In this document: in pieces, positions 31,280-52,728 of the stretch
Layout: the number at the start of each line of letters is the position of its first letter
How positions within the stretch are numbered: the stretch's first letter is position 1
NCBI GenBank assembly: GCA_029261595.1
Contig: JAJDAZ010000026.1
Coordinates: 62,001-126,000, forward strand
Direction: 5' to 3'
Length of the DNA: 64,000 bases
Source of the DNA: Nitrospinaceae bacterium
Lineage (GTDB): Bacteria > Nitrospinota > Nitrospinia > Nitrospinales > VA-1
Translations under genes and position numbers: made by a program
Notes under the pieces: generated by a model
Told to the model about the DNA's origin: nothing
The model's database searches: none
What the model saw: only the letters and a program-made list of their open reading frames with translations

Positions 31280-31497
31280 ACCTTATCGAGGAGTCCAAAA
31301 TCTATATTCTGTTCTCTATCGGCACAAAATCCGGATTTTTGAGCGCAAATCCAATATATTTAAGGATTTACCCGTATTTTTTGAGGATTTGCCATCCTCC
31401 GGGAGGAATCATAAAACCGGATTCCCGCAATTAAAATTTTTTGTAAACAAACTGCAACGTGTTAATATCTCTCGCTTATCTAATGTCACTTAAAACA

Positions 31498-32427
31498 ATG
31501 CGTTTTCTAATTTTTTTTATATTGAGCCTGCTTCTGGTTTTAGGAGCGGGATGCTCCGGTAACGACGATCGGGAAGAAACCTCCGAAAAGGGTGAATTGT
31601 TCCCTTCAGAATCGGAAGAATCCTCCCCGGATTTAACATCTCCTGCAGAAACGGCGGAAAAGGTGGTTCCCGTCCAATTGTCCCCGGAAGATCAGGAAAA
31701 AGCCAAACTCGCGCCGGAGGGCATGGTCTTTATTAAAGGCGGGTGTTATGTCATGGGCAATGATTATGCCCAGGAAGACGAAAAACCGGAACATGAAGTC
31801 TGCCTCGATGATTTTTACCTGGATAAATACGAGGTGACCCAGGGGCGCTGGGAAAAACTGCTCGGTTTCAATCCCTCCAAGCTCATTGGTCCCGATCATC
31901 CGGTCGAGCAGGTCAATTATGTTGAAGTACAGGAGTTCCTGGAAAAATCCAACGGCCAGTGCCGTCTGCCGACCGAAGCGGAATGGGAGTATGCCGCGAG
32001 GGGAGGGGCGGACGCTCGTTATTTCTGGGGCAATATGATGGACGAAGCCTACGCCTGGTATAAGGACGGGTCAGGCGAAACCACGCATCCCGTGGGGCAG
32101 AAAAAACCCAATCAATACGGTCTCTATGACATGATGGGCAATGTCTGGGAGTGGACGAACGACTGGTACGAGCCCTACTACCAGATACGGGAAAAGAAAA
32201 ATCCCAAAGGGCCTGCAACCGGCGAATACAGGGTGATCCGTGGCGGCGCGTTCGATTCTTCGGCAGGGGCCTTACGCATCACCAATCGCATCTGGCTTCA
32301 TCCCAAAAACCGGGTCTTCCCAAAAGTAACCACCTATGGTCAGGCCATCAACGAAGTTTATAATTACATCGGCTTTCGTTGCGCTCAATCCATCTCCAGT
32401 CAGCCTAAGAAAACTTCTGAAGAATAA
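31498..32427 (+). CDS. SUMF1-fold lipoprotein
   Basis: Lipobox LGAGC; GMVFIKGGCYVMGNDYAQEDEKPEHEV, RLPTEAEWEYAARGG, MMGNVWEWTNDWY, VIRGGAFDS. Confidence 0.9.
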   Translation: MRFLIFFILSLLLVLGAGCSGNDDREETSEKGELFPSESEESSPDLTSPAETAEKVVPVQLSPEDQEKAKLAPEGMVFIKGGCYVMGNDYAQEDEKPEHEVCLDDFYLDKYEVTQGRWEKLLGFNPSKLIGPDHPVEQVNYVEVQEFLEKSNGQCRLPTEAEWEYAARGGADARYFWGNMMDEAYAWYKDGSGETTHPVGQKKPNQYGLYDMMGNVWEWTNDWYEPYYQIREKKNPKGPATGEYRVIRGGAFDSSAGALRITNRIWLHPKNRVFPKVTTYGQAINEVYNYIGFRCAQSISSQPKKTSEE

Positions 32428-32453: not shown

Positions 32454-32487
32454 AAAAATATGTAGTCAAGAAAGGACCTGACCCCTT
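32454..32487. repeat. Left arm of inverted repeat
   Basis: aaaaatatgtagtcaagaaaggacctgacccctt; matches the reverse complement of 33390-33422 with three transitions in the 28-nt core. Confidence 0.85.
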
Positions 32488-32492
32488 CCTCC

Positions 32493-33317
32493 TCATTTGG
32501 GAGGAGTTTGCATCTCCAGGATTTTTTGTTTTTTTAACAGTAAGGATTTTGTAGAAATTCTGTCTATCTTCTTTATCGGAATAATTCTAATACTGTGTGT
32601 TTCATCCTGAAAATCTACGGTATATGCATAACTGTTATTTTGAAAAATATAGCGAAGGTTTGTGGATTTCTGATATTTATTCAAAAATACATAAGGCAAA
32701 GTTGAAATTTTTTTATATGTATCTACCGCTCCAATAAATCCTCCCATATTGTAGGAAAATAATGTAAGCCCATAGATTAAACCTACGAAGAGTATTAATC
32801 TAAATGAACTTAATTCTGGCTTCTTAGACTGAGCCATAATTAGGGTTTTTATACATGCAACGGTTAGGGACAAAGACATAATTGAAATTAGGAATTTTAA
32901 AGTTAATTCTTTTTCTGTCCAATCCCATTTCCACCAAATAAAATTTATAGCGTCAAAAATCAAAATTAAAACCGTGAAAATAACAGCCCATTTAACTATT
33001 GTTTCCGAAAGTATGGTTTTTACAGGATATTTTGAAACAAGAAACCACAAGGAAACACATGTAAAAAAAATTAGGAAAAGGCTGGGGAAAACAGACTTAT
33101 GAAAAATAAGCTTAGTCGGGACCTCCGGAAATAAATAGAGAGCATCAAATTGACTTAAATAACCTGAGGTATATAGACAACCCATTATGAAAAAGAACCC
33201 AGTAAATACCAAAAAAGTGGTTACTAATCCAACAGCCTGCCCATAAAGAGATGGGATGATGTTATTAAAAAGGTTATGGAAATACTCTTCTTTAGGATTT
33301 TTTGATTCTTCTCCCAT
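32493..33317 (-). CDS. AT-rich hypothetical multi-TM membrane protein within an inverted-repeat pair
   Basis: 274-aa ORF, about five TM segments, no recognized family. Confidence 0.7.
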   Translation of the reverse strand: MGEESKNPKEEYFHNLFNNIIPSLYGQAVGLVTTFLVFTGFFFIMGCLYTSGYLSQFDALYLFPEVPTKLIFHKSVFPSLFLIFFTCVSLWFLVSKYPVKTILSETIVKWAVIFTVLILIFDAINFIWWKWDWTEKELTLKFLISIMSLSLTVACIKTLIMAQSKKPELSSFRLILFVGLIYGLTLFSYNMGGFIGAVDTYKKISTLPYVFLNKYQKSTNLRYIFQNNSYAYTVDFQDETHSIRIIPIKKIDRISTKSLLLKKQKILEMQTPPK

Positions 33318-33389
33318 AGCTCAATAGTTTTCATAGGGGTAATTGGGGCGAGAAACTTGACAAGTATATAGGAAGATTGTAATTGAAAA

Positions 33390-33422
33390 AAGGGGTCAAG
33401 CCCCTTCTTGACTACATTTTTT
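33390..33422. repeat. Right arm of inverted repeat
   Basis: aaggggtcaagccccttcttgactacattttt. Confidence 0.85.
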
Positions 33423-33547: not shown

Positions 33548-33976
33548 TCAACGGCATTCGTTGCAGATGCCGAACATGTCTAATTTGTGGGAAGTGATGG
33601 TGAAGCCATTGCGGGCGGCGACTTCTTCCTGGAATTTTTCAATCAAAGGATGATTGAATTCGATGATCTTTCCGCATTCGGTGCAGATCATGTGATCGTG
33701 ATGGCTGTGCATGTATTTATGCTCGTAGCGTTTTTGCCCATCTCCAAAATCCAGCTCGGAAGCGAGACCGCTCTGGGTCAGCAGAGCCAGGGTCCGGTAC
33801 ACGGTTGCCAGACCGACCTTGGGTTCTGCGGCCGTGACCAGCTTATATAATTCTTCAGCGCTGACATGTTCCTCATGTTCCAGAAACGCCTTCAGCACCG
33901 CCCGCCGTTGTCGGGTGATCTTTAAATTGTTCTGGGCGATAAAATCTTCCAGAACCTCTAGTTCCTTGCTGGCCAT
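33548..33976 (-). CDS. fur: Fur family transcriptional regulator
   Basis: LKITRQRRAVLKAF, HVSAEELY, VGLATVYRTLALL, HHDHMICTECGKIIEF, ICNECR. Confidence 0.93.
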   Translation of the reverse strand: MASKELEVLEDFIAQNNLKITRQRRAVLKAFLEHEEHVSAEELYKLVTAAEPKVGLATVYRTLALLTQSGLASELDFGDGQKRYEHKYMHSHHDHMICTECGKIIEFNHPLIEKFQEEVAARNGFTITSHKLDMFGICNECR

Positions 33977-38717: not shown

Positions 38718-38790
38718 CGTCATTGCGAGCAAAGCGAAGCAATCCAGAACCCCTGGATCGCCACACCGCTTAAAGCGGCTCGCGATGACG
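38718..38790. repeat. REP-like palindromic intergenic repeat
   Basis: cgtcattgcgag ... ctcgcgatgacg outer arms, internal tccag/ctgga and ccgct/agcgg hairpins. Confidence 0.75.
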
Positions 38791-39211
38791 TTTTGGGTCG
38801 TCTCAGAATGCCATATGCAATTCATATTTACCCAACCCATTACTTGCTAAACATTAAAGCTGGGTGTTAACGGCCTCAGGGAGGAAACGCTGTCAGCAGA
38901 AAAATTGATGGTTTTCCATGGGATGCATAATGATACAGGATGGACCAACGTTAACAATGATATCAGATTATTGGGAATTCCCCAAATCAGTTTTTCATTG
39001 TTGTATAAGTTATTGAATAGGTTATTATTTCCGTTATTGGCTTTGATTATGGAAGTAAGCTTTGAAACGCGATGGGCATTTCTGTTCCTGGAAAATTTTG
39101 GGGTGTTATGATTTGGTCATCATTAAACTGGGGATAAACGAACTATAGGCCTAACAGGGTAATTTATGCTGATCTATATAAAAAATCAGGATTGCCCAAC
39201 CAAGAGGTGAC

Positions 39212-40006
39212 ATGGAACCCATAAGACAACTCTTCTTCGTGGACAAGCAAGACTGGATAGGTTCTAAAGTGTGGGCTTATTTAGTGGCTAATCCAGCTTT
39301 TCTACTTACAACCTTGTATGTAATTGTCAGTGGGCTAGGGCTTTTGTACGAATATGTGCTCTTTAGTAAATTTGGAGTCAATATTTTGGATTACTCCGAA
39401 GCTGCGGATTTTTTTCTTGCAGCCTTCAAACACCCCGACATATTTTTGTTATCTTTTATAATTTCCGGTAGTTTCCTTTTTTATCGAGTCCTTGCTAATT
39501 TTGCAAGTCAACAAAATAACATTTATCTACGTATTTTTCTGCTTTTGTTTTGCTGGTTGGGCTTGTTTCGACGTGAGGTTCTTTTGCCTTTAGGGGTAGT
39601 ATATTTTTTCTATTTCTATGTCGTCTTGGTAGGCCTTGAAGCCCAAAACCTTTTACATATATCAAATACCATTGTCAAAATTAGTTCCGAGTCCGATAAG
39701 CAGCAAAAAATCCGGCTTATTCCGATAGGAACAACAGAGAAATTTATTTTTGGAATTCCCTTCTCCGATGAAATTTCCCGAATGAGGCAAAGGAGCTGTT
39801 TTGAAGAAACAGCTCCGCCAATAACGGCAATTCCATTCACGAAAATTGTAAGAATTGAATATCAAAATTCAAACGAAGGATGGAAACAATCCTTTTACAA
39901 TAAGTTCATATTACCTTTGAAGAAAATATTTTTTCTTCCCCGTTATAAAAATAAACCACCTTGCCCATCCCCTCAGATTAAAACCACTCCTCCGAATCCC
40001 ACTTAA
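39212..40006 (+). CDS. AT-rich hypothetical membrane protein
   Basis: 264-aa ORF, about three to five TM segments then a soluble tail; no recognized family. Confidence 0.65.
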   Translation: MEPIRQLFFVDKQDWIGSKVWAYLVANPAFLLTTLYVIVSGLGLLYEYVLFSKFGVNILDYSEAADFFLAAFKHPDIFLLSFIISGSFLFYRVLANFASQQNNIYLRIFLLLFCWLGLFRREVLLPLGVVYFFYFYVVLVGLEAQNLLHISNTIVKISSESDKQQKIRLIPIGTTEKFIFGIPFSDEISRMRQRSCFEETAPPITAIPFTKIVRIEYQNSNEGWKQSFYNKFILPLKKIFFLPRYKNKPPCPSPQIKTTPPNPT

Positions 40007-51296: not shown

Positions 51297-51324
51297 AATA
51301 AATGGCACAGATAAAAACTTTGTA

Positions 51325-51581
51325 ACCGCAAAGGCGCAGAGGACGCAAAGAAAACCGTAAGAAAAAATTGGAGAAGATTAACAGGATCAACGGGATGAAA
51401 ATAAATCCTTTCAGACGCTTAACCACAGATGGACACAGATAAACACAGATGAGGGGAAAAGCAGGCTCCCCATTCCGCGAAGTACCCGTGCCGGGCATGA
51501 AGGCAAAGGTGAAATATCACAAGGATTAGGTGAGGGTAGTAAGGGATTTTGGTTTCTTTGCGTCCTCTGCGCCTTTGCGGT
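51325..51581. repeat. Inverted-repeat-bounded intergenic repeat block
   Basis: accgcaaaggcgcagaggacgcaaagaaaacc at 51325-51356 and its reverse complement at 51551-51581; interior contains ccacagatggacacagataaacacagat. Confidence 0.85.
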
Positions 51582-51631
51582 AAAAATAGGCTTTTGATTT
51601 TTAATTTTATCAAAGCGTCAAAAGGAAACGA

Positions 51632-52122: not shown

Positions 52123-52728
52123 ATGAGCAGTGAAAAAGAATTGGCTCTACATTACATAGACAAAGTTCATATGTCTCTGCTTGAAACCGGGAAGGCGATT
52201 AATCGATACGCGATGTATGTGGTGACAACTAGTTTACTATTAATGGCGCTAGGAACTGGTCTCTTGGACGTCGGGAAAACCATTTCTATTTCAGGTCTCA
52301 GTATTAGTATACCCTCTTGGGTAATTTCCTATGTTGGAGCTTGGATACTTATTTTTTTTTACGGGAGTTTTCTTGGCTTAATTAATCATGAAAATTGGCT
52401 TTATAAAGTAGTTATACGGTTGTACAGAAGTATTGGATTTTCGGATGAAAGCATGGAGAGTCACTCGGAAAATACTTTGGAGTACCCTGGAGTTCTTACA
52501 ATAAGCGCTAGTAAGCGTAGTCTTGGGAAAGCACATTCCCCTTTTATCATACTTTATGCGGGGGTTTTAATACTTTTCCCGATGGTTGCCGAAGTATATG
52601 TTGCATATAAGCTCCTAGTTTCCCAGAATTATTCGTTGTTGATGATCTTTTCTTTTTGTTTAATATTTCTAATTGGGTTCACCCATTTTGTCGGCCTGTT
52701 TCAATCTTTCCGTAGGTTGAAAAAGTAA
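52123..52728 (+). CDS. AT-rich hypothetical membrane protein
   Basis: 201-aa ORF with about four TM segments. Confidence 0.65.
   Translation: MSSEKELALHYIDKVHMSLLETGKAINRYAMYVVTTSLLLMALGTGLLDVGKTISISGLSISIPSWVISYVGAWILIFFYGSFLGLINHENWLYKVVIRLYRSIGFSDESMESHSENTLEYPGVLTISASKRSLGKAHSPFIILYAGVLILFPMVAEVYVAYKLLVSQNYSLLMIFSFCLIFLIGFTHFVGLFQSFRRLKK

Follow-up and report, generated by a model that had tools for sequence, protein, structure and literature searches.

REP, BIME, REPIN, RAYT and TIRYT elements are already known, and they are the closest described relatives of the repeats considered here. In the TIRYT/TIRtron elements, a Y1 transposase with a Bac_DnaA_C-like part is flanked by inverted repeats that carry the motif GGGGWSAS (Di Nocera et al. 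2013, PMC3733652), while REPINs and BIMEs are inverted pairs of GTAG-headed palindromes, proposed to be non-autonomous and mobilised by RAYTs (Bertels and Rainey 2011, PMC3116915; Nunvar 2010, PMC2817692); the paired REPs of Pseudomonas are typically 60-70 bp apart (PMC3390384). RAYTs are described as domesticated transposases and the mode of REP spread as still to be elucidated (PMC8266576), with formal evidence for autonomous RAYT mobility lacking (PMC6006769). In mobile insertion cassettes (MICs), e.g. the qnrD elements (PMC3913671), a passenger gene is located between inverted ends of a transposon family and is moved in trans. The literature describes inter-REP segments and RAYT flanks; our literature search, which covered few subscription papers, found no report of REP brackets that carry genes and have empty alleles or varying cargo.

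Here, we describe a unit of 0.97 kb in the window, i.e. the whole 64-kb stretch of Nitrospinaceae DNA that was analysed, from a relative of marine nitrite oxidisers, where a single gene of foreign appearance is bracketed by two inverted arms. The left arm, a REP/TIR-like repeat with GTAG outward and CCCC inward, occupies 32455..32487 on the + strand (core 32460-32487, ATGTAGTCAAGAAAGGACCTGACCCCTT), and the right, inverted arm occupies 33390..33422 on the - strand (core 33390-33417, reverse complement ATGTAGTCAAGAAGGGGCTTGACCCCTT); by repeat detection and direct reading, the arms are 33 nt each, 88% complementary, with 902 nt between them. The 28-nt cores (ATGTAGTCAAGAA-AGGACC-TGACCCCTT on the left, ATGTAGTCAAGAA-GGGGCT-TGACCCCTT on the right) differ at three positions, all of them transitions, just as an initial sequence-only reading of this DNA had it, and direct reading places GTAG outermost at both ends of the bracket, with CCCC facing inward. 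With up to three mismatches, the arm pattern matches the 64-kb window twice, i.e. at the two arms themselves, where shuffling predicts 0.15 matches; this count, together with zero matches of a reversed control pattern in 77 genomes of the class, rules out plain chance as the origin of the arms.

The cargo is a gene for a 274-aa orphan membrane protein (32493..33317, - strand, GC 0.32, from the ORF list), predicted to form five long helices followed by a small C-terminal, strand-containing part. Its stop lies 5 nt from the left arm and its start 72 nt from the right arm, close to the 6 and 70 nt that had first been estimated. The neighbouring host genes, also from the ORF list, are those named by the sequence-only reading: on the left, the conserved gene of a SUMF1-domain lipoprotein (31459..32427, + strand), which is tail-to-tail with fur in 21 relatives, and on the right, the conserved gene of a fur-family regulator (33548..33976, - strand), which has orthologues in relatives; they are located about 28 and 126 nt from the arms. 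The impression that the unit is more AT-rich than its neighbours is borne out by the inner GC of 0.320, the minimum of the window, against 0.471 +/- 0.035 in its other 902-bp stretches (z = -4.3). The cargo protein has no match in Pfam, PADLOC or NCBIfam; its one homologue among 100 relatives (L068) is 24-25% identical, likewise AT-rich, and without arms, and its AF2 model is of low confidence (pLDDT 46.7) and too poor for use. A phage or plasmid origin has been considered and rejected: viral contigs and plasmids hold no homologue of the cargo, and no viral contig has the exact arm pattern.

Other features of the window are recorded here in their own right. A second AT-rich gene (39212-40006, + strand, GC 0.37), preceded by a long AT-rich non-coding stretch, encodes a 264-aa orphan membrane protein without a convincing Pfam match and without arms; it has a short SKFG motif (cf. 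SQFD in the cargo protein and SSFG in the cargo homologue), the overall similarity being insignificant. A 201-aa ORF at 52123-52728 (+ strand) is also AT-rich (GC 0.38), with no Pfam match above the cut-off. An inverted pair that is unrelated to the arms (51320-51353 and 51553-51586, 34 nt, 94% complementary, 199 nt apart, ..CCGCAAAGGCGCAGAGGACGCAAAGAAA) resembles repeats in the fur-SUMF1 gap of G001, and a common intergenic repeat (TCATTGCGAGCAAAGCGAAGCAATCCAG...) has a copy at about 38718-38800; repeats of this type seem to crowd the flank of the bracket in G027.

The arms of the window have the architecture of a REP, i.e. GTAG, the hairpin GTCAAG-N6-CTTGAC and CCCC, and both fold and covariation show that the family as a whole has a GTAG head followed by an imperfect palindrome (GTAG-TCAAG-N6-CTTGA). 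The 6-bp hairpin of the common arm forms folds far better than shuffles (DNA fold z = -3.8), and its inner pair covaries between G-C and A-T, with 115 Watson-Crick pairs observed and at most 113 in 2000 shuffles. The left copy of the window has a mismatch and folds poorly, and the right copy has an alternative fold, AAGGGG-CTTGA-CCCCTT. As for GGGGWSAS, the left arm (GGGGTCAG) fits the motif, and the right arm (GGGGTCAA), like most arms, deviates from it at the last letter.

The distribution of the arm has been surveyed with a 27-nt version, at up to three mismatches, across the class (Nitrospinaceae and kin, 77 genomes), with the reversed pattern as control; the genome bins, one per species, are partly fragmented, and several arms lie at contig ends. 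The arm is present in 35 of the 77 genomes, at about 150 places, while the reversed control has no match. The pattern also retrieves named Nitrospinaceae and Nitrospinota MAGs, as well as two Scalindua MAGs, two labelled 'Proteobacteria' and one labelled Hyphomicrobiales. In the genome of the window itself (a 3.78-Mb bin), the arm occurs only between SUMF1 and fur, the extra matches at three mismatches corresponding to the background of the reversed control. The repeat copies of relatives have a sharp inner end at CCCCTT and often extend outward for 30-340 nt; in many of these copies the arm is thus the inner edge of a longer repeat, and the mobile unit may really end outside the arms, as in G058. 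A distant member of the class, G068 (L116-L128), has about 20 arms, of a CAGTC variant, as well as 16 matches to RAYTs, many of which are broken; the proteins in its brackets are short, and the brackets show no clear AT-richness.

In six sister genomes (G003, G042, G051, G046, G068 and G019), complete Y1 transposase genes are located between these same arms, and elsewhere in sister genomes the arms flank other genes; the arms belong to the repeat family of a Y1/RAYT-type (TIRYT) transposase. The arm pairs that enclose a transposase have CCCC outward, are about 0.99 kb apart and contain a protein of about 326-330 aa, in which Y1_Tnp is combined with a DnaA-like C-terminus. The two transposases that were examined match PF01797, with a Bac_DnaA_C match that is below the curated cut-off and a match to the REP-associated transposase model NF047646 that is at or just under the cut-off; the flanked transposase is the TIRYT of PMC3733652, probably of TnpA-REP subclass 2.1 (PMC6006769). 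Since these arms surround RAYT/TIRYT transposases, the sequence-only reading was correct in noting a resemblance to repeats near REP-associated Y1 transposases. It was also right that the locus has no transposase; a Y1 transposase gene with a DnaA-like C-terminus is absent from the bracket and from the whole bin (a MAG about 91% complete, with zero RAYT matches). The search for a Y1/RAYT gene elsewhere in this genome, which that reading had proposed, was successful with respect to Y1, yielding one IS200-like protein of 155 aa with no arm in the 3.4 kb around its gene, and unsuccessful with respect to RAYT.

Facing arm pairs that are more than 0.4 kb apart are of two kinds: those with CCCC outward have a RAYT inside, and those with CCCC inward have other genes inside. 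The bracket of the window is of the second kind, and its orientation is opposite to that of the RAYT element, so that a mere exchange of the ORF of a RAYT element for cargo does not account for it; a MIC formed by ORF replacement is ruled out on the same ground.

Both SUMF1 and fur were fetched from 23 other genomes. In 21 of these, the two genes are tail-to-tail, with 41-452 nt between them and neither arm nor cargo gene; the comparison shows that the window unit is an insertion between SUMF1 and fur, and the empty sites in close relatives exclude that all of them keep the gene and its arms by vertical inheritance. The arms also occur in other genomes, and neither of the two outcomes that the sequence-only reading had named as refuting its idea is therefore observed. 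The fur-SUMF1 gap of G025 is occupied by an unrelated TylF-like gene without arms, and that of G003, a genome of the same genus, extends over 5.9 kb and contains a bracketed gene of 123 aa along with one complete RAYT and two remnants of RAYTs. The G003 array (L069 6907-10070) packs the complete RAYT, the two remnants and five arms into about 3 kb. Homology between the window insertion and this array has been considered and rejected: the gap shows essentially arm-to-arm matches only, so the two are treated as separate events.

Empty alleles and different cargo are found at other sites as well. A contig of the same MAG as the G058 bracket, with flanks 98% identical, is without about 75 nt, an arm, a 145-aa gene and an arm; the empty junction reads CCGGAAGG|TCACC, and the filled one CCGGAAGG, followed by the 75 nt or so, the arm, the gene, the arm ending in CTACAT and AAGGTCACC. 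This site is empty in six relatives, and the G058 insertion, set against its empty allele, has no RAYT match. Its ends are asymmetric, with about 75 nt beyond the left arm and none beyond the right; given this and the outward-running repeats, the limits of the mobile unit are not fixed. G028 and G025 have in common the left flank with the left arm (86% identity) and also the right flank, and their genes differ: an SLFN-g3 helicase (PDC-S41) in G028 and an MmeI-like type IIG enzyme in G025, where the right arm is not conserved. Between cysH and cbiQ, different genes are found in two contigs of G063, in G051 and in G053, with arms in both G063 contigs, a degenerate right arm beside cbiQ in G051, and none in G053. 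The two G063 versions, from one MAG (C133/L087 and C216/L152), have flanks that are 84-87% identical and different arm-associated genes, encoding a 130-aa membrane protein and a 209-aa protein with a weak DUF3644 match; in G057 and G055, a gene of normal GC is located beside cysH instead. The empty-site comparison of G027 is uninformative because of another repeat family in the flank.

Other genes bracketed by inverted arms, which the sequence-only reading had suggested looking for, do exist: 18 further brackets of 0.5-3 kb have CCCC inward (19 counting the window). The GC of the cargo ORFs is below that of the closest ORFs outside in 14 of the 18 brackets that allowed the comparison (mean difference 0.083, Wilcoxon p = 0.006), and several of the 19, mostly in G068, are not AT-rich relative to their surroundings. 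The GC polarity of single arms (99 arms, p = 4e-10, 24 of 28 genomes positive) was set aside as evidence because it is partly confounded, the outer side of many arms being the conserved repeat itself, and the ORF comparison of the brackets has been relied on instead. The cargo that could be identified, either bracketed or behind a single arm, comprises an AbiJ_NTD5 protein, an Abi_C/AbiJ-like protein, a hemerythrin, two SLFN-g3 helicases matching PADLOC PDC-S41, an MmeI-like type IIG restriction enzyme and a type II restriction-modification pair; many of the remaining cargo proteins are orphans. Defence genes appear prominent among the identified cargo on inspection. An AT-rich region of G011 (L077 6681-9760), with a type II restriction enzyme and a cytosine methyltransferase, adjoins a single arm.

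On balance, we favour the view that the unit is an accessory-gene cassette that is bounded by REP/TIR repeats, inserted between SUMF1 and fur, and probably moved in trans by a RAYT. Its ends are REP/TIR-type repeats of the RAYT subclass TIRYT (probably TnpA-REP subclass 2.1), whose transposases have a DnaA-like C-terminus, and each end offers GTAG outward as a single-strand hairpin site; a RAYT, supplied from elsewhere or present in an earlier host, would have cut the paired ends and moved the bracketed DNA, presumably through a single-strand DNA intermediate. What points to a RAYT as the agent is that the ends are shared. The movement would be analogous to the proposed mobilisation of BIMEs and REPINs, except that the repeats would enclose a whole gene, and the bracketed site, once in place, could be refilled with another gene. 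Against a cassette stand the single bracket and the missing RAYT of its own genome, the unfixed limits of the unit, the right arm that is not conserved in G025, the several brackets without relative AT-richness, and an orientation opposite to that of the RAYT element; with this orientation, the unit may be REPIN-like or may be the inside of a composite that has decayed.

The armless genes, i.e. the TylF-like gene of G025 at fur-SUMF1 and the gene of G053 at cysH-cbiQ, also count against a cassette, and they suit a different explanation, according to which these sites are hotspots of the ordinary kind, where AT-rich genes gained by horizontal transfer turn over by flanking homologous recombination, with REP-type repeats, which insert between genes, having landed by chance on both edges of some of these genes without a role in movement. 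The outward extension of repeats beyond the arm, as free-standing repeats in G049 and other genomes, agrees with it, as does the general frequency of short variable segments in bacteria, 10-18% of which are flanked by short direct repeats (PMC2884548). However, independent landings would not be expected to turn CCCC towards the cargo repeatedly in transposase-free facing arms more than 0.4 kb apart, and the repeat and the gene are jointly missing in the G058 allele comparison; we regard chance marking of hotspots as rather unlikely. The inward CCCC is also exactly how the inner ends would face if two RAYT elements had once flanked a gene and then lost their bodies, leaving these ends as arms, and cargo is indeed located between RAYT remnants in G014 and in G003, whose array is at this very locus. 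Such decay nevertheless appears improbable for the window, where the 28 and 126 nt or so between arms and host genes hold no RAYT remnant, and RAYT matches are absent from the G058 insertion and from most other brackets. Lastly, the arms are intergenic and capable of forming hairpins, as would be simple convergent terminators of transcription on either side of a gene that has never been mobile, but their sequence of 27-33 nt, which hardly varies between genera, their position around transposase genes elsewhere and the relatives that have neither gene nor arms leave this idea with hardly any credibility; the empty sites and the RAYT association refute it in substance.

With respect to the cassette reading, the repeat-bracketed spots that are empty or differently filled in relatives suggest a kind of swappable gene cassette that is so far undescribed. 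Gene-bearing brackets with empty alleles and varied cargo would be a sign that the REP machinery is able to transfer genes from one genome to another, and they would identify a carrier of stand-alone defence genes in a marine lineage that is uncultured. More tentatively, Nitrospinota and relatives may possess a cassette system with paired inverted REP/TIR ends, served by a RAYT in trans, that captures and exchanges mostly single accessory genes, defence genes being prominent among them; it could be a functional counterpart of the integron that is built on a REP transposase.

Compared with the known systems, the locus resembles the TIRYT/TIRtron elements in that the same kind of transposase is located between these arms in sister genomes and the left arm of the window fits their motif, from which most arms deviate by one letter; TIRtrons, however, carry the transposase gene, while the repeats of the window bracket an unrelated gene, with reversed facing, in a genome that has no RAYT. 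REPINs have GTAG outward, and the window likewise has two inverted REPs with GTAG outermost, but in place of short spacing (about 100 bp) and many copies there is a single pair, 902 nt apart, with a gene inside. The ends of MICs face as they do in the parental IS and are of the DDE type, whereas the ends in the window are inverted relative to the RAYT element and are of the HUH type. Recognisable element copies around the cargo, as in a composite transposon, are absent from the window and partly present in G003 and G014. Integron gene cassettes are mostly single-gene and AT-rich, with orphan or defence cargo that varies at shared sites; the brackets similarly hold mostly single, AT-rich orphan or defence genes, with different cargo at shared sites, and differ in the repeats found, which are short REP-like arms, one per side, and inverted.
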